This document shows, in pieces, positions 5,545 through 17,220 of a DNA stretch of 24,526 nt (positions within the stretch are counted from its first letter, which is position 1; each line of letters opens with the position of its first letter). Both the position numbers and the translations under genes were made by a program. The stretch is from NCBI GenBank assembly GCA_000310025.1, contig FN649729.1, positions 3,691,218 through 3,715,743 on the forward strand, written 5' to 3'. The notes under the pieces were generated by a model. That model did not search any database. It was given only the letters and a program-made list of their open reading frames with translations, and was not told where the DNA came from. Source of the stretch: Ectocarpus siliculosus. Its lineage: Eukaryota; Sar; Phaeophyceae; Ectocarpales; Ectocarpaceae.

Positions 5545-6135
5545 ACAGCGATGACAAAGGCATCCGCCATGAGCTGCGTGTATGGTCCGTCTTGGGTGGT
5601 GGCTGTTAGAGACCACAGGGCGATTGGAGGCACGCAAACTGAGGTGGCGAGGGTCAACAGCACGCCGGAAAAATACCCATCCGCGCCAGCAACCAGTTTT
5701 TTTTTTGCTCTTTGGTCTGTGTCGCAAATTTGGTTTATCGATGCTCCCTCGCCACCCACACCAGCACCAGCGATGACAAAGGAATCCGCCATGAGCTGTG
5801 TGTATGGTCCGCCTTGTGTGGTGGTTGATACAGACCAGGAGGCTGAAGGGCGCTCAAACATTGTGAGCGCAAGAGTCGTGAACAAGCGGCGGGAAGAATG
5901 ACCCGCCTCGTCTTCAAGCAAATTGTTTTTGCTCTTTCGCCCGTGTCGCAACTTTGGTTCATCGATGCTCCCTCGCTACCCACTCCAGCAACAGCGATGA
6001 CAAAGAAAGGTATCCGCCATGAGCTGCGCGTATGGTCCGTCTTGTGTGGAGGTTGACACAGATCAGGAGGCTACAGGGCGCCCAAAAGTTGGGTTCGCAA
6101 AAAAAGTTGACAGCACACCAACAAAGACCCCCCGC
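5545..6135. repeat. ~223-bp tandem repeat, about 2.6 units
   Basis: The anchor ATGACAAAG followed by an ATCCGCCATGAGCTG block recurs at 5551, 5773 and 5997, giving spacings of 222 and 224 bp. Units also share CATCGATGCTCCCTCGC and a downstream GACAGCAC/CAACAGCAC block, and the third is partial. On the minus strand all units can encode the peptide GPY(T/A)QLMAD. In units one and two this continues as FVIA, but unit three has a small insertion that breaks the frame and a stop nearby. This could be a minisatellite-like array or repeated exons of a decayed minus-strand gene. The plus strand is also open across much of it, so coding evidence is weak. Confidence 0.85.
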
Positions 6136-6630: not shown

Positions 6631-6670
6631 TGTTATAGGATTCAGATGTGTAGACGGAACATAGAAGAGC
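6631..6670 (+). repeat. Remnant of the 5' LTR (first 40 bp)
   Basis: Identical to 16846-16885, the start of the 3' LTR. The match breaks after AGAAGAGC, where the 5' side passes straight into gag-proximal sequence and the 3' side continues as LTR. The rest of U3, R, U5 and the primer-binding site are missing here, which fits one internal deletion. Transcription from this end would need a neighbouring promoter. Confidence 0.85.
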
Positions 6671-6674
6671 CTTG

Positions 6675-6760
6675 CTTCGGCCCCCCCCGTTTCTTCGGAA
6701 ACTCGTGTTGCGTTTTCGAACATGCCACCGGCTTCGGCCCCCCCCGTTTCTTCGGAAACT
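6675..6760 (+). repeat. 29-bp direct repeat, 57 bp apart, at the Gag start
   Basis: The segment from CTTCGGCCCCCCCC to TTCGGAAACT occurs at 6675-6703 and 6732-6760. The 57-bp spacing keeps the Gag frame, so both copies encode ASAPPVSSET. The upstream copy lies before the first ATG (6722) and is open back to TAG 6662 inside the LTR remnant. This suggests that the present Gag start is truncated by the deletion. Confidence 0.85.
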
Positions 6761-7339
6761 GTTGCACCTCCTGTTTTTTCTACCGCTGATTATGCTGTAG
6801 GCTCAGGAATCGCACACAACCCCGGGTTCTCAAACCCCACCCCCCCTTCGACTTTTGTGCCCGTACAAGATGTTCATCATGTTGTACCGTCTTGGGATAG
6901 TGTTCCGCCTGCTGCCCCTTCGGTTGCAGCTGCTGCACCCCCTGTCGTTTCGGATGATAGTGTCTTGCCACTTTCTTCCAACATTGCACATGCTCGTCAA
7001 GCCACAGTAGATGCGGCTGCTTCGGCAGTTAGCAAGACTCACGTAGTTACTGTCCAACGGGCGTACATCACTCTGAACTTGAAAAAAGTTGGAAATGTCG
7101 CTACCATGCCCTTCCCTTCAACTTTGTTGCCTGGGGACGGCTACCAACAGCTCATCCGCACAACACGAACGGCCTTGTCCGACATATTGTTGCTGTATGA
7201 TGACCAAAGCGAAGGGTTGGACAGTACTGATTACGTGCCTGGATGGGAACGGCCTCTCGAAAAGAAACTTTCGGGTGCGATCACCCCTGACAAGCCCTCT
7301 ACTGCCGATCTTGTCCTTTCCATCGCTGATTACTTTTAG
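6722..7339 (+). pseudogene. gag: Gag, N-terminal part
   Basis: The frame starts at ATG 6722, or earlier in the intact element, and stops at TAG 7337-7339. The same frame then continues. The first 90 residues are Pro/Ala/Ser/Val-rich and probably disordered. A more ordered segment follows, containing hydrophobic stretches typical of the folded Gag region. Gag forms the intracellular particle that packages element RNA. The assignment rests on position ahead of the zinc knuckle and protease and on composition, since capsid domains diverge quickly. The TAG is followed by CAG, which resembles some leaky-stop contexts, but three further stops downstream favour mutational decay. Confidence 0.7.
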
Positions 7340-8224
7340 CAGGTGAAGAGGAGCTTGGACGGCGGCGCCACCGGACCTGAAGCTTTTCAGTTGCTGTTGC
7401 GTCATCTTGCGGAGCAATTTGATGTCGGCGACCGTCAAGAGTTATTTTTGAGGCTACAACAATTTGGAGTAGCAGATGGTACTTCTTTCGCGGATTACCT
7501 TCGTGCTTTTCGTTTGTTGGTTTCGTCTGTGACTGGCTCTGAGCGTACTTTGGCCCCTAGCGTATCCATGGTTCTAGAAATAGTGCGGCATTCGGTCTGC
7601 AAGCAATTTCCGAGTTTGTCTCCGATTTTGTACCCGGGTGCTCTGGCCACGGCCGTCACTCCCTTTGCGTCGATTGCGGATATGTGGGAGGCGTTCGCGC
7701 CTCTAGCGACAAATAAAACCCCGGCTATCGGCGGATCATCTTATTTTTCGTTGTCTTCGACGCGTGGCTCCTCGCAGCCTCGGCGGTCCCAACACCGCGC
7801 CCCCGCGCCTTCGGGCCAGTGGGCACCAGGTTCAGCTCAGAACCCTGTAGTTCTGCCGGTACAATCGCACGATGCTGACCCTTTCACACGCAACTATAAT
7901 TCTTGGCCTGCTTCGCAAGCCGATTGGTCTGATGTATACGCTCTCACTTCTAGCTTTCGTAACACGGAGGATCCTTTTTTGTGGACTCCTTTGTTGACAC
8001 AAGAGGCTCGCTCGCAAGCCTTCCGCGAAAACAGGAATCGCTGTCTGAACTGCTCGGGTGAAGACCATTCCATGAAGCAATGCGTTGCACCGTTCACGAA
8101 TTCTAGTGGGTTGTTGAACCCCGAGTTGGGTCTCCTCAATGACGATTCTGCTGCTTTTAGACGTTGGCAAGGCCGTATGCGGTCTTTTCGACGAAAAAGT
8201 GCGGACAACCGCCAAAACAATTAG
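7340..8224 (+). pseudogene. gag: Gag, capsid C-terminal part and nucleocapsid zinc knuckle
   Basis: This is in the same frame as the preceding part and runs from the base after TAG 7339 to TAG 8222-8224. The first 110 residues are helical with regularly spaced hydrophobics, as in retrotransposon capsid domains. A Ser/Arg/Pro-rich linker follows. A CCHC knuckle, CLNCSGEDHSMKQC, spans 8042-8083 (C-x2-C-x4-H-x4-C). This motif binds the element's RNA during packaging. The tail after the knuckle is rich in Arg/Gln/Asn and continues past the TAG, again with no frame change. Both flanking stops could derive from CAG by one transition. Confidence 0.8.
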
Positions 8225-9865
8225 GGTAGACGCCACCAGCGCTCTTCCTCTTCGTCCTCTCAGCGTCGAAACCACGCTGGGAATCGCCGTTCCGACGGTG
8301 GTAGTTCCCCTCACACTCATCAGACACAATCGCACAACAGTGGGTATGCCCCAGGAAATTCTGCGGGTAACTCTCACCCTCAGCAACACCCTTCGATCAA
8401 CACCAACCACACTGGTGCTCTGTCCCTCTATCAACCACAAACACATGCACACACCGGTCCTTCGTCTGGCATCATGGTTTCGACCAATCACAATGCCCGT
8501 CAACCTGGCAACTTCCAAAATGGTGGCCGTTCTCGCAGCGGATGACTCATCGGTGGTGGTTCGCCTACTTCCCCCGGACCGCCCTCAGCATCTTCGGGGA
8601 CCTCGTCTCGTTCTTCACAAGACGCTCGTGTGTCACGCTCTGTTGCCCCTAATACTTCGGTTTTATGCAACAACGACAATACTTCGGTGTCTGTCGCGCC
8701 GTCACACACTGTTGCCTCTAGCACTTCGGTCCTACGCAACGATAACCACACTTCGGTGAATGTTATGCCTTCTGGTACTTCGGTGCCGCACAATAACAAC
8801 CATACTTCGGTATCCGTTGTTTCCCCCAGTGTCGATCAGGTCGGTATCCAGACAAATGCTCTCGTCCCACCTTCTACATCGCACTTATCATCTGCCACCT
8901 CTGCGTCTCTGCCTCTTCGGGCTGGCGCTCCGTCAGAAATTAACCAGTCTGGCGCGAGTGCTGTCTTGAGGTGCGGGAACAGAACCGTAGGACCTTCGGG
9001 GCCATCGAGTACCGCTCGTTTGTCGGGCACCGCTCGTTCGCTCCCCCCGTCGTCTGCAGATCAGACCGGCCGTAGCCATGCGCTTTGGACGATTGAAGAG
9101 GAATCGCCTGAATTGGTTACCTCGGGTGAATCTTCGGATACGCTCAACTCGTCTGTGCTCGCTTCCGTTGAGGGTTCGCCCTCGATTGTTGCACCGGTAG
9201 CTAACTTGACTGGTTCCGACCGGCAAGTTACAGGGTCAAATTCGCCTTGTTTCGAATCGCTTTGTTCTCTTGGTTCTGACCGCCGAACATCATCAGATTC
9301 CGCCACGAGATATTTCGACCATGGATCGTCTTCGGACGCTCCATCCCTTCCGACGCACGCTCGCCCCACGGCGCCCAATACCAGGCCGCTGCGACCGACG
9401 TCGACAGTGTTGACACCACCGCTTCGGGAGGACCCTCCCGGAGTGGCCTCCGAACAGCCGGCGGTCTCGCGTACCTTGTCACGGAGGAATGGCCAGGAGC
9501 ACCACGCCCGGTTTGGTTCTTTAACCGACCCGGCCTTGGCGGCCGTTCCTAGCGAAAGCAACCTGTTGAATGACGCCTCACGAGGCGTTTCTTCAGGTTT
9601 AGAATTGGGGCGCACCCAGCGTGATGTCGCTGGCCCAATTATTGCGAACAATTCGGCTCCCGTCGATTCTTCGCCGGTCTCTGACATACCCGAGACCGTC
9701 CCCATGGACGTTCACGCCGTAAATTACAATGCGGGCGTTTCGGCTGCCTCCGCTTCGACTACATCAGCTTCGGCTGCAACCTCAGCTTCGGCTGACCGCA
9801 CTCCAGGTGTTTCGACTCCTGCAGTTCCCGCTGTCTTCGACCCGTCTAACGAGTATTGTACTTCT
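8225..9865 (+). pseudogene. Low-complexity Ser/Thr/Asn/Pro-rich polyprotein linker
   Basis: About 547 codons joining the nucleocapsid to the NADAR domain, in the same frame and broken once by TGA 8543-8545. Composition is Ser, Thr, Pro, Ala, Asn, Gln and His, with no predicted globular domain. An internal degenerate tandem repeat at about 8640-8825 carries four rounds of a motif like TSV-x2-(N/H)N-x-(N/H)TSV. The length is unusual between a CCHC knuckle and a protease. It may be a flexible tether exposing the next domain on the particle, or a fast-evolving spacer. No other function can be read from it. Confidence 0.7.
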
Positions 9866-10327
9866 GACATGGTCTTGTTTTGGCAGCCTCCCTCTCCTTT
9901 TTCCCAGTGGACACCGTCGACTTTTGTGGTCGATGGAGTGGTATACTCGTGTGCTGAGCAGTTTTTCGCTGCGGAAAAAGCTCGTCTTTTCGAAGACCAT
10001 TGCGCTTTACAAAACATCATGCGCGTGTCCGATCCTGCCTTAAACAAGAAGTTTGGCCGCGGTGTCCGTGGTTTCGACCCATCTCTTTGGGAACACGAGC
10101 GCGAAAATATTGTGCTCACTGGCTCTTACGCAAAATTTAGTCAAAACTCCGATTTGCGCGAGCATCTTCTCTGATCTGGCGACAAAATCCTTGCCGAAGC
10201 TAGTCCCTACGACCGTATTTGGGGCATTGGCCTTCAAGCCGATGATCCTGACGCTCTATCCACCTCTCGATGGCGTGGCCTCAATTTGTTGGGCAACGCC
10301 CTTCAACGAGTACGCAGTCTTTTGCGA
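9866..10327 (+). pseudogene. NADAR (YbiA-like N-glycosidase) domain inside Gag-Pol
   Basis: About 154 codons match the NADAR family (COG3236, formerly DUF1768) along the whole domain. There is an N-terminal SPFS block, then VDGVVYSCAEQFFAAEKA with the conserved glutamate at 9956-9958. Next come a K-x-FGRGVRGFDPSLW block, [29 protein letters not shown] (YDRIWGIG at 10208-10231) and W-x-G-x-N-LLG-x-AL near the end. Length equals the usual domain. A TGA at 10172-10174 sits just before SGD, at a variable position, and is the only interruption. Known family members cleave N-glycosidic bonds of riboflavin intermediates or remove ADP-ribose from guanine. In the polyprotein it lies between nucleocapsid and protease, so it could be packaged with the particle. 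The substrate here is unknown. Confidence 0.9.
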
Positions 10328-11300
10328 TGCAATGCCCCGCCGCCCGAGCGCAGCTCTCGTTTGCTACCCCCCAACGACCACGTTTCGACGTCGTCTCAAC
10401 ATTACGCGGTCTATGAAGTTAGCCCTTCTACACACCAGCGTCTTCGGATGGCCTCAACCCCTCCGTCGACTGAACGATTCGCGTCGTTTTCACAATACGC
10501 TGCGAATGTTCCATCGGATCATGACACCGCTGTTTGGGCCGTGTCTTCCGGGTGCCCTCAGCCATCCTCTTCCTCTTCTTTGCTTCCTGAGCAAGGTCCG
10601 GATTTGGTTGATGGTGTTGTTACCATCGATGATGACTCTTTCACCACCCAAATCCTCACTCACAGTGGTTCGGCTTCTGTTCAGTTTGGATGTGTTGCGC
10701 TTTTGGACACGGGTTCCCCGCAGTCTTTTATTAGTGCATCTGCGTGGGAATCCATGAAAGCCGCTTCGGCCGCTTCGTCGTTGTCTGAGAAACAAACCCA
10801 ACCTCGCTGTTGGGGAGGTTTCGGCGAATCTGCTCCGCTTCAAACTTCGACTATTGTCCGTTTAAGCGTGCAGTTTCTTCGCAAGCACCTTCCTACTTCC
10901 TCTCTCGCTGTTTGGGCATACGTTGTTCCTGATGGTGTTATGCATCATGACGTACTCCTCGGGAGAGACAGTTGGATGCGGTTTAGCGACCGCTCTTACC
11001 GCACTTTGCGTGCGAAACGCCCTGGTGACCGTGTTTTTGGTGAGCTTACCCTGGCTCAGCATAGCAGTTGCGGTGCCACCGCATTTGCTCACGATTTGTC
11101 TTCCACGGATGGAAACTACCAACTTCGCTATGCTGGGAAACATTCCGTCCAACTTCACCCTGAACATAGCCTTGTTCCGGTTAATTTGGTACGCAGCGAT
11201 GGCTCTCCCGCCCTCGTGGGTAACTATCTCGTGGATATTCTTCCACAATGTGCTATGTTTTCTTCCCAGGAACATTTTGTGCAAAATGGTTGCCAAAGAC
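10328..11300 (+). pseudogene. pol: Retroviral-type aspartic protease region
   Basis: The same frame continues after NADAR through a Ser/Pro-rich spacer to [15 protein letters not shown], with the catalytic DTGS at 10706-10717. About 95 residues later, [13 protein letters not shown] gives the LLGRD block that normally lies near the C-terminal end of the protease fold. The protease cleaves Gag-Pol into its working parts inside the particle, acting as a dimer. No stop or frameshift occurs in this portion. The boundary with the reverse-transcriptase region is approximate: a further ~190 residues of less conserved sequence follow before the polymerase. Confidence 0.88.
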
Positions 11301-13052
11301 TCCCGCTCGCGGGTATCTCTTCACTCGAACCAGGCGACATTCTGGGTACAGCTTCGGCTCCCCTTCTTCGCGTGCCTCTCAGTGCTGTGTCTCGCCACAG
11401 TTTGAGCGATGGTCTTCAATCTGCGGCTCAAGATCCCACCATTGCTTCGGGCAACTGGGTTCCGGGTCCTGTTTCGACAGGTGGCATTGATTCGTCTGCC
11501 GAACGTCGCATTGATGACCCCTTCGTGTATAATTTGCATGAGCGACCCACGCCGTCGCCACGCGGCAAAGAGGACCCTGGTTCTGCCAGTGCTTCTCTTT
11601 CGTCGCCTCCGCCTGCTCTTCTCGAGCGGTTGACGTCTGAACAACGTCAGAGTTTTTCCCGCGTGTGGGATAAGCTCCCCTGCCATCTCCGTGAGATTTC
11701 TTTTGATCTCCATGGTCCGGGTTGGACTCCGGATGTCATCACTCAGCTTGGTAACGTCCTGTGCGACTATCATGATGTCTTCTCGAGTTCCCCCACCGAC
11801 TTTGGATCTTGTTCGCTTTTTCCTTTCAAGCTTACAGTTCCTCCGGGCAGTGCACCCGTCACGTCTCGTCCATACCGCGTTAACCCCCCGGTGGCGAAAC
11901 AAGTTGACGCGATCCTTGATCAATATCTTGCGGCTGGTCTGATCCAACATTCGACCTCGCCCTACTCGAGTCCTTTGGTAGTCATACCGAAGAAATCTGG
12001 TGGTGTTCGCATCACTGTCAACTATCGCAAGCTCAACAAGCTTTGTGCTTTGAGCCAGCTTCCGATTCCTCGAGTTGATGATACTTTGGACAAGTTGTTG
12101 AAAGGGCGAATTTATTCCCTTTTCGATATGAAGTCTTCGTTCCACCAAATCACGGTTCACCGTGATACAATCCCTTTGACGGCATTCGTGACGTCTTCCG
12201 GGCTTTTTGAGTGGTTGAAGATGCCTCAAGGCAGTTCTGCTGCCCCTGGGTGGTTTTGCAAGGTGGTCAACGAAGTCATCAAAACTCTCCACGGTGTTGC
12301 ATCGTACTTGGATGATTTGATCGTTTTCGACGACAACCCTGCTTCTCATGTTGATACCATGCGCGCTCTGTTTGAACGCTTACGCACACACAACTTGAAA
12401 CTCACCCCACCGAAGGCCACCATTGGCGCTACCGAAGCGGATTTCCTCGGCCACACCATCTCCCCCGACGGTGTTCGGCCTAACGGGGCCAAGGTTGCGG
12501 CCCTCACCAAAATGCCCATGCCTAAGGATGTTAAACACCTTTGCTCTCTTCTCGGCGGCCTCAGCTACTACCGCAAGTTCCTTCCCAACATGGCTACGCG
12601 AATTCGACCTCTGACCACTCTTCTCGAGAAGCAGGCGATGTTTGCCTTCACCCCTGCCATGGAGCAAGCTGTTCGCGTCCTGCTGTCTGAGTTGGCCAAC
12701 CCTCCTGTCTTGGTTTATCCAGATTGGGATGCCGTTACGGACGGCTCGCGACCTTTTCGCCTCTACTGTGATGCTAGTCGCGATGGGTTCGGCGGAACTC
12801 TCGAACAAGAACAGTCGGATGGCTCCATCCGGCCCATCGTTTTCATCAGCCGAGCTACTTTGGACTCCGAACGTCATTGGACTCCCCTCGACCTCGAGGC
12901 AGGTAGCATCGTATGGTGCATCAAACGACTTCGCGGTTATGGGGCACGAAATTTCGCATTTTTACCGACCACAAGTCTCTTGAGCATTTTGCCAAGGTGG
13001 GGGAGAACAATGCCCGCGTTCAGCGTTGGCTTGAATTTCTTACCGCCTAAAT
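11301..13052 (+). pseudogene. pol: Reverse transcriptase and RNase H
   Basis: After a spacer, the polymerase begins near 11866 (RPYRVNPP). It shows [31 protein letters not shown] and MPQGSSAAP, then the catalytic YLDD at 12305-12316, and FLGHTIS and [10 protein letters not shown] in the thumb. RNase H follows with LYCDAS (Asp at 12770), LDLEAG (Glu at 12896) and TDHKSLEHF (Asp at 12967). The enzyme copies element RNA into DNA and degrades the template. The frame slips by one base near 12939, between RGY and the WGTKF block, so RNase H is split. It slips again at about 13047-13052, where a TAA appears in the highly conserved connection to the ADFLSRLP block. Both slips behave like single-base deletions. 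Confidence 0.95.
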
Positions 13053-15607
13053 TACACTCTCGAGTACCGCAAGGGTTCCGCAAATGGCAAGGCTGATTTC
13101 CTCTCTCGCCTTCCGATCGATGCGACGGAATGTGACCGATCTGGTCGCAGCCGCTTGACACCGGATGACGATGAGGAGAGCGTATTCTTCATCCGTTCTT
13201 GTGGCCTTACGCCTTCTGGCCATCGCGCCGTGGGTGTTGGCTTGGGTGGGCTCGTCCCCACTTCCCCGACTTTGGTCTTGGGTGGGCTGGCCCCCTCTAC
13301 AGATGATTTTGTCGACTTCCGTCGGCATGGTCCACGTCTCTCGCCGTCAGGCCTTTCGTCTCCGCCTGCCGTCTGGAACATCGCACCCTGGCCGTCTAAC
13401 AACTCCCGCGGGTTGTCTCCTTCGCTACGACGCCTGTGTGACAGGACCCTCGATTGGTCTGGCTCCTTACATTCTTCGGTGGAGGACATTTTGGCTCTCG
13501 AGCCCGAGTCTTCGCCGGCCGTCTCGCCGACTGCAGCATCACGACGGACTCTCGACCCTACTCAACTGGTTTCCACGCGAACTCGCCGTCGCACGGCGGT
13601 TGTGGCAGGCACGCCCCTCCCGCCCGTGGATTATGGTTTCTCCGAGGACCCGCCTGCTGCTACTCGGATTTCCGCTTCGCCCCGATCGTTTCGACGTTCC
13701 CCGCCCGCACACTCAGCATCGACTGCGCCCCCCGTTTTGACCAGGTTGGTTTCGGCTCCTGGTGCTGACACTTCGATCCCAGACCTTCATACGCCTCTGG
13801 CTCGTGGAAGGGATCTTGCGTCTTCGACGCATCCTGCAACTTCGGTTGCTCCTGCCCAGCAGTCTTCTGCTGCCCCCGATTCTTCGGAATCTTCGACGCG
13901 TTCGGTTTCGACCACTCGTACGCCTTCGTCTTCGGTTTCCGCTGCTACTCTGCCTTCGGGTGGATTGCAGCCGGAGCCTCAGAAATCGGCTCCCTCTTCT
14001 ATCGAGGCGGTTTTACATTCCTCGGCAGATTTAGCCTTCCGGGCGTCTGTCGAACGTTTCTCGCATGCTGATTGGGCTCGCGAGCAACGTAGCGAACCTA
14101 TTTGTGATGCAGCTATTCGTTTCATCCTTCTGGGTAGGCCTTCGGCCCTCCCTCCGGATTTCCTGGATCATCTTCCGTCCGCTCGTCGACCTCCTCTGTC
14201 GGAGATTCGTGACCTGTCTAACAAAGGCCGGTTACATGTTGACGATGATGGTTTGGTCTTGCTTGTTCGCAAGCAAACAGCGCCCCCGTCGTCTACGACC
14301 ACACGTCCTGGCGGGCGTGCTGCTTGCCTTCTCAACGACGAACCCATTCGGATTTATGTTCCCATGCTCATGCGTCCGTGGATCATGCAAGCCTGTCACG
14401 CTGATGCATCCTGCCACCTCGGTGCCGCTCGCACGCTTAGCATGCTGGAACGTTTTTATTGGTGGGTTGGCATGAGTGTTTGCACGAAGTGGTGGGTAAG
14501 GCATTGTTTGCGATGCCAAGCTCGCAAGTCATCTCGTCAAACGCCTCGATGGCCTACTTTGTGCCTTCCGCTGCCTTCGGGCCCTGGTGTGTCGGTGAGC
14601 GTCGATTATTTCGGTCCCCTCCCGCTGACACCGCGCGGAAACACATATATTCTGCTTTTCACTGATCGTTTCAGCCGCCGTGCTGACATGTACGCGGTTA
14701 CGGCTGCAGAAGTCACCGCCGAAGGCACCTCTGACGTACTTGTCAATCGGTATATCCCTTTATGGGGTTGCCCTTTGAGTCTCTTGTCTGATAATGGCTC
14801 TCAGTTTTGTTCTAAACTGTCGCAGGCTGTATACGCCCGTCTGGCTATACGCAAAGTGGCTACCAGCTTTTACCATCCCAACGGCAATGGGGGTGTGGAG
14901 CGCGTAAATCACACTATGGCTCAGATGTTGGCTATGGTCGTCAATGAGAGGCAAGATGATTGGGACATTCATCTGCCGCACGTTGAGTTTGCCTACAACA
15001 ATTCGGTTAGTGCCGCTACTGGTTTGGCGCCCAACGAGGTGCACATGAACCGCCTGCCACGCATGCCGATGACGGTTTTTGAGCATCCATATGCTCGCGG
15101 CCACCAAAGCTTGCATCGCGATCAACTTGAGTATTGCGATCTTGCTGCTGATCGCCAACGTCGTTCTTACGATTTAGTTCGCGAGCAGCACAACCTGTCC
15201 GTTTCGAGGATTGAGCGGCGTAACTCCGCTCTATCGGATGCTTTGCGCAAGGTCCCCTCATACACCGTCGGTGGATGGGTTTGGGTGTACAACACCGAAT
15301 CTACCATTCACCAAGGTGTTCGTTCAGGCACGGATGACAAGGTCCTCAAGGCTAAGTTGTCTTTCCTTTGGACTGGTCCGTTCAAGATCTTGGCCGTGGG
15401 TCCGTGTCCTGACGCTCCCGACGGTTGTCCTCTGGCTTCCAAGTTACTGTATTTGGATCTTCCATCGGATCTGCCGGGTCCGGACTCGAAAAACCGTGTG
15501 TCAGTTGCGCGTTGCAAGCCTTGCGCTAATCCGCATGACACTGAAGACTTGCCTCGGTTCCTGCCTGCCGGCCTTACACCGTATGTGCTAAACTCCTATG
15601 CGAATAA
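13053..15607 (+). pseudogene. pol: Connection region and integrase (HHCC, DD35E core)
   Basis: From [20 protein letters not shown] the frame stays open through a long Ser/Pro/Arg-rich spacer (about 13150-14040). It then enters the integrase. The HHCC zinc domain has His at 14397 and 14415 and Cys at 14505 and 14514. The catalytic core has Asp 14604 (VDYFGPL), Asp 14790 (SDNGSQF) and Glu 14898 (GGVERVN), with exactly 35 residues between the second Asp and Glu. The C-terminal part carries a beta-rich segment near 15260-15500 (GGWVWVYN, LWTGPFKIL) typical of gypsy integrases. Integrase joins the cDNA ends to host DNA. The spacer before the zinc domain, about 300 residues, is long for the family. 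The frame is lost between 15608 and 15632. Confidence 0.95.
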
Positions 15608-16282
15608 ATCTCCTCCCTCCATGTTACGGAAGACGACGTGTCGACTCCGGTCGAACGTCTCGAGGTTGACCGCATTAGTGGCCATCAGTCTGTTCGTGGC
15701 CGTGGTGGCACCATCGCTGTTTTATACCAAACGCATTGGAAAGGTCTTCTTCGTCCTTCTTGGGAACGTGAGATGGACCTCCAGCATTCCAAGACCCACA
15801 TTCTCCGGTACTGGACGGGTTCGCCTGATCAACACCGCCAAACGAATCGCCGCTATCGGGCGATGCGTATTGGTGCGGCCACCCGCGAGATGGCGCGCGC
15901 TAAAGGGGAGCGAGCCTTGCCTTCGGGTGATTCGCTCGTCTCTCGTTCAACATGGGACCGTCGCTTCGCCCATACTCCGCTACCTGCAGGCGCCTTCTTC
16001 TGGTACAAAGCTCGCGATGGATTCTGGTGGTTGGGCAAGATTACTGGACCGCCTCTACCGTCCGACTTCTACATCGTCCGCTTCTTGGACGATCCTGGCC
16101 CTGTCAAGCTCGCCCTTCCTGATGTTCGCTACTCCACCGCTGAAACCGCCGTCTCCGGATCCTGGTGCCTCCAAGTTCACAGCGGCAGCGCCCTTTTTAA
16201 GGGGATCCTTCGCAACGTCGACATGTCGCGTGGTGACCCCGGGACTGATTCGTTGCCTGATAACGTTGCGCGCCCCCATTAA
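15608..16282 (+). pseudogene. pol: Polyprotein C-terminus: chromodomain plus SH3/Tudor-like domain
   Basis: After a one-base frame loss, the polyprotein resumes in another frame and ends at TAA 16280-16282. A chromodomain spans about 15650-15814. It starts with VERLEVDRI and contains YQTHWKG (the usual Y-x-V-K-W-K-G position), then PSWERE and LQ, ending ILRYW. In chromoviruses this domain follows integrase and guides insertion toward particular chromatin marks. A second module at about 15989-16142 has FFWYKARDGFWWLGKI, then FYIVRFLDD and LALPDVRYS. This aromatic-rich small beta-barrel pattern is like Tudor or related Royal-family/SH3 folds. That second assignment rests on pattern only. Two possible histone-reading modules in one integrase tail would be unusual. 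Confidence 0.78.
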
Positions 16283-16845
16283 TACGACGTGCTAGTTGTC
16301 TTGGCTTTCTGTTGTTTTCAGCGTTGTTTGGGTTGCTTTTTAGCCTTGGTTGGTTTTCGCTTTCTCCTCGCTTTATTTTGTGCCTTTAGCGTTTGGTCAC
16401 GACCTGTAGGTGTTTCGCGCCCATTGTTGGCCCTTCTACACTGCCGTGGCGACTGCGTGAATGGCGTATCTTATCGTTTTCTTACGATACCGGTCTTGTT
16501 GTGGTTCCTACAGTGATCCTTTCTTTTTGTCGTTATGACGACCTCTGTTTTTCTTTTTTTCTGTTTTTCTTCCTTTCTTTGTGTTTTCCTTTCTTTGGTT
16601 CCGACCTTCTTCCGGTCGTCGTAGGCTTTTCTTAGCCCCGTCAGTTCCTTCCTGTCTGTGTCTTTTTGTCGTTTTAGAAGTCAAACGATGGTCTTGCGAC
16701 TCATCGAGTGAGAGGTGTGGGAGGGTGAATTGTGCTGTTTTGGAGCTCCACATCCTCGATACTTTCATTTAGAGACTCGACAATTGCTTGTCAAGACTCC
16801 GAGGTTTTACAGTATCTGCGTATGAGAACCTCCAGGGTGGGCTAG
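16283..16845 (+). other. 3' untranslated region of the retrotransposon
   Basis: There is no coding potential after the polyprotein stop. The first 400 bases are strongly pyrimidine-rich (runs of TTTCTTTTTT near 16515-16590), which is unusual for the sense strand. A purine-rich GAGTGAGAGGTGTGGGAGGG lies at about 16705-16727. The segment next to the LTR (about 16830-16845, CTCCAGGGTGGGCTAG) is the expected polypurine-tract position but is only weakly purine-rich. Confidence 0.65.
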
Positions 16846-17081
16846 TGTTATAGGATTCAGATGTGTAGACGGAACATAGAAGAGCTTGGTTCCTTCTAGA
16901 AGGCGCGAAGAGATGTAACTCTCCGCGGAAGGATAAAAAGTAGGGGACAGGATCTAGTAGCCCCTGCTTGTGCAGAGGATCCTGTGTCATTCCTACTGCT
17001 GCTGCTGTTCTACAAGAGTAACAACAAGTGAGTTCTTCTTCACGGGTCAACCAGACTTCATCACGCGTGCATACCACTACA
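16846..17081 (+). repeat. Complete 3' LTR, 236 bp
   Basis: It begins TGTTATAGG and ends CACTACA, giving the usual TG...CA ends with TGT/ACA symmetry. Its first 40 bp equal the 5' remnant. The right boundary is fixed by the empty-site relative at 17343-17490. A TATA-like ATAAAAAG lies at 16933-16940. A perfect palindrome CCTTCTAGAAGG occupies 16892-16903 in U3. An 8-bp perfect stem, ACAGGATC (16947-16954) with GATCCTGT (16978-16985), sits just downstream of the TATA, where the transcript would start. Confidence 0.85.
16933..16940 (+). promoter_or_regulatory. TATA-like box in the 3' LTR
   Basis: ATAAAAAG lies in the middle of the 236-bp LTR, at a sensible place for a U3 core promoter with R starting about 25-30 bases downstream. 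In the 5' LTR this segment is deleted, so the copy has lost its own promoter. Confidence 0.45.
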
Positions 17082-17220
17082 CCTCCCTCTGTGCCGCGCG
17101 CGCGCCCGGGTCGTTCTCTTAGAGACATGGAGGCTTGCTTGTGCATTTTCAGTCCGTACGGGACGCGCCTTTGCCTGAAGTTTCTTCCAATCTTCTCCAA
17201 AATTTCGTTGTGTCCAGTGT
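17082..17220 (+). repeat. Right half of the repeat split by the retrotransposon
   Basis: It starts with CCTC (target duplication, 17082-17085). From CTGTGCCGCGCGCGCGCCC onward it aligns to 17376-17490 with scattered mismatches and small gaps. Shared blocks include GGTCGTTC, CTTAGAGAC, ATTTTC and CCTGAAGTTTCTT. Confidence 0.8.

Follow-up and report, generated by a model that had tools for sequence, protein, structure and literature searches.

Why should the Pol protein of an LTR retrotransposon carry a NADAR domain, and does the domain belong to the element at all? The question is raised by a stretch of 24,526 nucleotides from the brown alga Ectocarpus siliculosus (contig FN649729.1), hereafter the window, which harbours the decayed copy of an LTR retrotransposon of the Ty3/Gypsy type whose Pol includes a NADAR domain. 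The features of this copy are collected in Table 1; from Pfam matches and motif positions, the order protease, reverse transcriptase (RT), RNase H and integrase is that expected of Ty3/Gypsy. The 3′ LTR was assigned from an 87% match of window positions 16845–17082 to positions 517–786 of the locus L022.

Table 1. Features of the NADAR-bearing Ty3/Gypsy element in the window (window coordinates).
Feature	Position	Strand	Remarks
Putative 5′ LTR remnant, begins TGTTATAG...	6631..6670	+	likely; 40-bp direct repeat identical to 16846–16885
Gag frame, interrupted in the window copy	6722..8542	+	TAG 7337 and TAG 8222 inside
CCHC knuckle of Gag	8042–8083	+	frame common with NADAR and LLDTGS
In-frame TGA followed by C, Gag/Pol border; predicted readthrough site	8543..8545	+	conserved in the family
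Variable linker, Pol N-terminal	8546..9877	+	26–43% amino acid identity between subfamilies
NADAR domain, YbiA type	9878..10327	+	PF08719, 86.7 + 54.4 bits; in-frame TGA 10172–10174 in the window copy
Retropepsin active-site motif LLDTGS	10700..10717	+	frame common with the CCHC knuckle
Reverse transcriptase (RVT_1)	11984..12460	+	Pfam; YLDD at 12305–12316
RNase H (RT_RNaseH_2)	12647..12940	+	Pfam
Integrase zinc-binding domain (H2C2)	14358..14534	+	Pfam; frame differs from that of RT in the window copy
Integrase core (rve)	14583..14879	+	Pfam
Chromodomain-like stretch	15662..15814	+	PF00385, 16.1 bits, E 0.011, below the Pfam cut-off of 25.1
3′ LTR, at least part of it	16846..17082	+	inferred by similarity to the 5′ side of L022

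The initial annotation described a full-length NADAR domain in frame with the CCHC knuckle and the DTGS protease motif and proposed a profile search as a check. The search confirms the domain, its full extent and the common frame, but the domain is split by TGA 10172 in the window copy: one piece covers 9878–10171 (profile positions 2–112, 86.7 bits, E = 2.7e-24) and the other 10178–10327 (profile positions 115–163, 54.4 bits, E = 2.3e-14), at a PF08719 cut-off of 35.1 bits. The Gag–NADAR frame of this copy contains four stops, TAG 7337, TAG 8222, TGA 8543 and TGA 10172, and the reading frame changes ahead of the integrase. The two TAG codons look like decay; TAG 8222 is also present in L014. 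Over 9 kb, the window copy is 97.4–98.0% identical to six other copies of the same subfamily. Elsewhere in the window, a 103-bp direct repeat (93%) within 1303–2164 lies on both sides of an ORF (1427–2056) without a Pfam match, whose product looks on visual inspection like the C-terminal part of a LINE protein, and three copies of a unit spaced 222–228 bp apart occupy 5556–6100, directly upstream of the Gypsy element.

The 189-Mb genome (492 contigs) was scanned for further copies, and the best 150 of 230 NADAR candidates were scored. According to the initial annotation, the lack of a profile hit or the absence of the domain from all other copies of the family would have refuted it; neither is the case, and all 150 scored places exceed the PF08719 cut-off; 129 of them have no stop (table count), and in 24 the NADAR domain lies without a stop in an open frame of at least 2,000 amino acids. 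It should be noted that runs of N occur in at least four of these 24 long-frame places (L011, L018, L019 and L027), two being much inflated, and that the middle of NADAR is frameshifted in another of them, L026. The profile scores, together with the 150 scored places, exclude a chance match. With the family RT as the query (best 150 of 477 candidates scored), RT was found on the same strand at a distance of 0.8–5 kb downstream, most often 1.8–2.3 kb, for 125 of the 150 scored NADAR places, and NADAR was found upstream of 125 of the 150 scored RT places. According to our reading of the table from a later genome search, NADAR places are listed ahead of five or more of the 25 unpaired RTs. Four unpaired RT loci were inspected: NADAR is present at L036 and was not found in the approximately 3.8–5.8 kb upstream of RT at L033, L034 and L035. 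The frame of L033 begins behind the protease motif, and RT places of this type without NADAR are likely due to truncation; the family may also contain a sublineage without NADAR. Two of the 25 scored NADAR places without RT, L037 and L038, proved on inspection to be element pieces.

Taken alone, the stops and the frame change of the window copy would suit a one-off capture or an assembly chimera. This explanation, to which we assign practically no probability, is refuted by the pairing of NADAR with RT at 125 places on many contigs and by the same fusion in other public records and in print. The print source is a Genome Biology paper of September 2025 (PMC12477816), in which one Gypsy lineage of Ectocarpus is reported to have NADAR at the N-terminal end of Pol, so that the layout, for which the initial annotation knew of no described chromovirus, is already described in this genus. 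Among the papers listed by our literature search, which was thin on subscription journals, it was the only one recognisable as dealing with NADAR or YbiA in a retrotransposon. The lineage concerned, Gypsy-12_Ec32, resembles the window element in being a Gypsy element whose Pol carries a NADAR of the YbiA family N-terminally; a C-terminal chromodomain is reported there. The same paper places the Ectocarpus lineages outside the true chromoviruses, which speaks against the earlier label of chromovirus; in the window, the chromodomain-like stretch stays below the Pfam cut-off (Table 1). It also describes Tx1 LINEs of Crassostrea gigas with NADAR in ORF1, which are retrotransposons too, but non-LTR. 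The words "stop codon" and "readthrough" are absent from its main text, and the conserved UGA described below comes from the present analysis; its NADAR passages, in the available text, contain no selection test, no single-capture test and no Gypsy NADAR outside Ectocarpus.

The initial annotation placed NADAR within one Gag-Pol polyprotein frame. Gag and Pol do lie in one frame in subfamilies A (L012), B (L010), C (L009) and D (L024), but with a single TGA between them, and TGA 8543 of the window is this conserved stop. TGA-C is kept in 24 of the 25 copies with BLAST hits over the site, a count that covers subfamilies A–D of a family that further includes E (L002, L028, L037 and L038) and F (L001 and L008); the sole exception, L027, has a small deletion across the site. 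Since Gag and Pol are parted by the conserved UGA-C upstream of NADAR, the latter is a domain of Pol.

UGA readthrough is the likeliest predicted route to Pol, because coding similarity continues on either side of the stop and the first Met after it differs in position between copies. The lack of a shared Met also disfavours reinitiation; splicing may be another route. A host code reading TGA as sense is disfavoured, as Pol frames of more than 2,000 amino acids are without TGA and one site keeps it. No RNA structure after the TGA is shared among the five stretches folded (z = −0.66, −0.55, −2.16, −0.76 and −0.65). The arrangement is comparable with gammaretroviral gag-UAG-pol (PMC4178896, available text), in which Gag and Pol also occupy one frame with a stop between them; the algal element differs in having UGA-C, for which no stimulating RNA structure was found and readthrough is predicted. 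If readthrough holds, NADAR would be produced in enzyme amounts.

Is the domain equipped to act as an enzyme? In the available text of PMC11543638, the contacts with ADP-ribose in the NADAR of Phytophthora nicotianae (8bau) are E43, K50, R79, W89, R93, E125, D130 and W133. We placed these residues on the element NADARs via the profile alignment to 8bau (E = 4e-26), the window and L001 being entered with X at the stop and L039–L044 left out. The full set of eight contacts occurs in 26 of the 29 element copies, the exceptions being L026 and L028, with frameshifted middles, and the truncated L027; E43 is found in 28 of the 29 (one copy being truncated), and K50, E125 and D130 in every copy. All 29 also carry Glu as the catalytic residue of the last strand, in agreement with the YbiA subfamily rule of Glu rather than Asp or His at this place (PMC11125620, available text). 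The DarT1-linked antitoxin NADAR of the BC4488 type differs from the element in its last-strand Asp and its linkage to DarT, for which the genome gave no match.

Among 39 related polyproteins (from 63 identifiers, P0121–P0183, chosen by name, with a NADAR of at least 140 residues), the other seven contacts are each retained in 37 to 39, and the R93 position is occupied by R in 11, C in 27 and K in 1. In five of five host proteins the R93 position is K; together with the C or K in 28 of the 39 polyproteins, this counts against the reading of the domain as an ADP-ribosyl hydrolase. An AlphaFold model of P0003, a close element-like NADAR (pLDDT 89.4, pTM 0.82), matches 8bau, a NADAR with ADP-ribose, at E = 1.7e-11 (TM 0.71/0.79) and YbiA (2b3w) at E = 2.2e-07; the other 11 matches of this structure search were all non-significant. 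The Phytophthora protein (PMC11543638, available text) has the same fold, the eight contacts and the YbiA-type Glu, but it lies outside any retroelement and is 27% identical to P0003 in the structural alignment. The best NCBIfam model is TIGR02464, riboflavin biosynthesis intermediates N-glycosidase, with 148.7 bits for the NADAR of L012 at a cut-off of 73.7. Overall, the residues expected of a guanine-ADP-ribose hydrolase are retained in the element NADAR, and this activity is predicted from its sequence.

Between intact copies of the four subfamilies, amino acid identity is 58–80% for NADAR, 61–92% for RT, 44–68% for the spacer and protease, 48–63% for the 500 codons that follow RT and 26–43% for the linker that directly precedes NADAR. 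The corresponding dN/dS values for A–D, calculated from one intact copy per subfamily with dS at or near saturation, are 0.06, 0.03, 0.09, 0.16 and 0.51. Across subfamilies, the conservation of NADAR thus comes close to that of RT and far exceeds that of the linker. The initial annotation had proposed a dN/dS test for purifying selection; the value for NADAR is low between subfamilies, and within subfamilies the picture is weaker. There, with few changes, NADAR gives 0.90 (A), 0.14 (B) and an undefined value (C, no synonymous change), and RT gives 0.08 (A), 0 (B) and 0.16 (C), also with few changes. Because the within-subfamily values of NADAR are not clearly low, recent constraint is less clear on NADAR than on RT.

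We observed a high correlation (r = 0.946, 0 of 5000 permutations, 13 rows) between RT and NADAR distances; P0163, P0175, P0121 and P0152 had been excluded beforehand, and close copies among the rows help the correlation. The NADARs of the lineage form one clade in the careful trees of 50 rows (98/94, 14 rows) and 72 rows (98/90, 30 rows). The rows of both trees were chosen, in the former from the 127 of a quick tree, with P0043 and six other proteins counted as element-like. Since NADAR distances track those of RT and the lineage NADARs form one clade, the data fit a single capture before the subfamilies split. The 127-row quick tree counts against one capture, as the element NADARs are split there between two groups, adjoining the host clade in an unresolved arrangement. 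The comparison of element with host NADARs, also proposed initially, places five brown-algal host NADARs in a separate clade of the 50-row tree (100/99); a joint clade of elements and brown-algal hosts is absent from the best tree, yet it is unrejected (AU p = 0.271). A bacterial origin of the element NADAR is suggested in the available text of PMC12477816 and is neither shown nor excluded by our trees.

The alga has an intron-bearing NADAR gene of its own. With P0012 of E. fasciculatus as the query, two exon-like matches lie at C24:2125206–2127003, and the 2.5-kb stretch at this gene (L045) contains four; in four segments, the gene is 83%, 90%, 95% and 62% identical to the protein of Ectocarpus sp. 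13. Its N-terminal stretch, rich in Cys and His, is common to other brown algae. The search for ADP-ribosyl transferases in the host genome gave four short PARP-like exon matches, two of them with an internal stop, and no match for DarT; KptA likewise had no match there, and for both an exon-split gene can be missed.

The search for related proteins used a piece of L012 as the query and NADAR as the scored region, and 54 of 628 candidates passed. P0129, P0130, P0136, P0139, P0152 and P0160 combine NADAR with an RT that is 55–63% identical to those of subfamilies A–D, and the RT of P0122 (Ectocarpus sp. CCAP 1310/34) and that of subfamily A share a rounded identity of 100%. Two polyproteins, each known from a single public record, are more distant. 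P0163, a Gypsy polyprotein of 1919 amino acids on an ENA contig of 8569 bp, has the order RT, RNase H, integrase, macrodomain (1226–1343) and NADAR (1422–1570); P0175 has NADAR ahead of protease, RT, RNase H and integrase, so that NADAR stands at opposite ends of Pol in the two. Their RTs are 29–38% identical to those of A–D and 34% to each other, and in the 72-row tree their NADARs join those of a clam and of further proteins (99/88, 9 rows), being weak sisters (85/74) on long branches. Because these RTs are distant and the NADARs lie in another clade, a capture separate from the brown-algal one is likely, as judged from the sequences; P0163 and P0175 may share one capture.

None of the 10 hits to the macrodomain–NADAR region of P0163 is a second macrodomain-bearing element. 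Among 31 pattern stretches in IMG/VR no viral relative was found, a collection from which records near the Ectocarpus genome may be absent. Several other fusions were noted: P0167 (1035 amino acids, confirmed) and P0168 (1054 amino acids) join microbial PARG, ADP-ribosylglycohydrolase, NADAR and a macrodomain; P0176 (1165 amino acids, JGI/ENA), perhaps from a large DNA virus, joins an mRNA capping enzyme and a cap methyltransferase to NADAR; and in P0125, a clam protein of 894 amino acids (Mercenaria mercenaria), two NADAR domains are the only Pfam matches.

What, then, does the domain do? We tentatively favour, at somewhat short of even probability, a putative particle-borne ADP-ribosyl hydrolase that would strip ADP-ribose from the bases of the element's RNA or cDNA. 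On this proposal, UGA readthrough would yield Pol, and hence NADAR, at a small fraction of Gag, and NADAR would be packaged in the particle alongside protease, RT and integrase. Host transferases would add ADP-ribose to guanine, or to nucleic-acid ends, of the element's RNA or cDNA; this mark would otherwise block reverse transcription, and the NADAR of the particle would remove it. We favour this reading because of the intact ADP-ribose site, the conservation between subfamilies, the expected packaging with Pol and the likely recurrence of capture, in one case next to a macrodomain; the PARP-like exons of the host also argue for it. The initial annotation had put forward such a counter-defence role as a possibility. 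The lack of DarT and KptA matches in the host genome, where an exon-split gene can be missed, and of a shared RNA structure after the UGA argues against the proposal. An analogous precedent for an eraser in a retrotransposon may be seen in orchid Ty3/Gypsy elements (PMC9289625, available text), which likewise acquired an eraser of a nucleic-acid modification, the AlkB m6A RNA demethylase; it is another enzyme, encoded in a separate ORF and not within Pol, and its activity was shown in vitro.

The good fit of the riboflavin N-glycosidase model TIGR02464 makes a small-molecule substrate possible. The domain could clear damaged or signalling nucleotides, such as ADP-ribose derivatives and reactive N-glycosides, near reverse transcription, in the manner of retroviral dUTPases, and in the available text of PMC9503650 it is argued that the NADARs of phages favour, for the most part, soluble ADP-ribose derivatives. 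The same source, however, proposes that the NADARs of eukaryotic RNA viruses mainly target host macromolecular ADP-ribosylation, and every NADAR/YbiA protein assayed in the available text of PMC11125620 hydrolysed guanine-ADP-ribose; with the ADP-ribose contacts retained in the element copies, we consider a small-molecule role unlikely, though the foremost of the alternatives. The macrodomain beside NADAR in P0163 fits ADP-ribose chemistry generally and does not separate the macromolecular from the small-molecule reading.

Somewhat less probable again is that NADAR processes the RNA intermediate, acting on RNA ends, NAD caps or the primer tRNA. A similar idea is voiced in PMC12477816, and the fusion with a capping enzyme in P0176 points the same way; against it, KptA is without a match in the host genome, and no report of NADAR activity on RNA ends was found in the sources as far as available. 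For a binding or structural module of Pol without catalysis we found nothing direct, beyond the general point that accessory domains can be repurposed and the within-subfamily dN/dS values that are not clearly low; the near-invariance of E43, K50, E125 and D130 in the element copies makes such a role very improbable.

The ADP-ribosyl hydrolase reading has a wider form, which we regard as a serious possibility short of an expectation and somewhat less probable than the hydrolase activity itself: ADP-ribose erasure would be a recurrent, selected function of retroelement particles, and at least two, perhaps three, Ty3/Gypsy lineages (that of brown algae, that of P0175 and that of P0163 with its macrodomain and NADAR) would have captured domains for ADP-ribose processing independently and would deliver them in Pol. 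Our literature search found no report of a eukaryotic defence that ADP-ribosylates retroelement RNA or cDNA.

Taken together, what our results add to PMC12477816 is the UGA conserved between Gag and Pol, the test for co-inheritance of NADAR and RT, the NADAR gene of the host and the cases in unrelated Gypsy elements. Likely independent captures and a UGA that would meter NADAR with Pol make this a testable question with a small domain. If NADAR strips ADP-ribose from nucleic acid, it would indicate that eukaryotes have a defence in which retroelement RNA or cDNA is ADP-ribosylated, and if recurrent capture is true, a defence acting in this way on retroelement nucleic acid would be implied.
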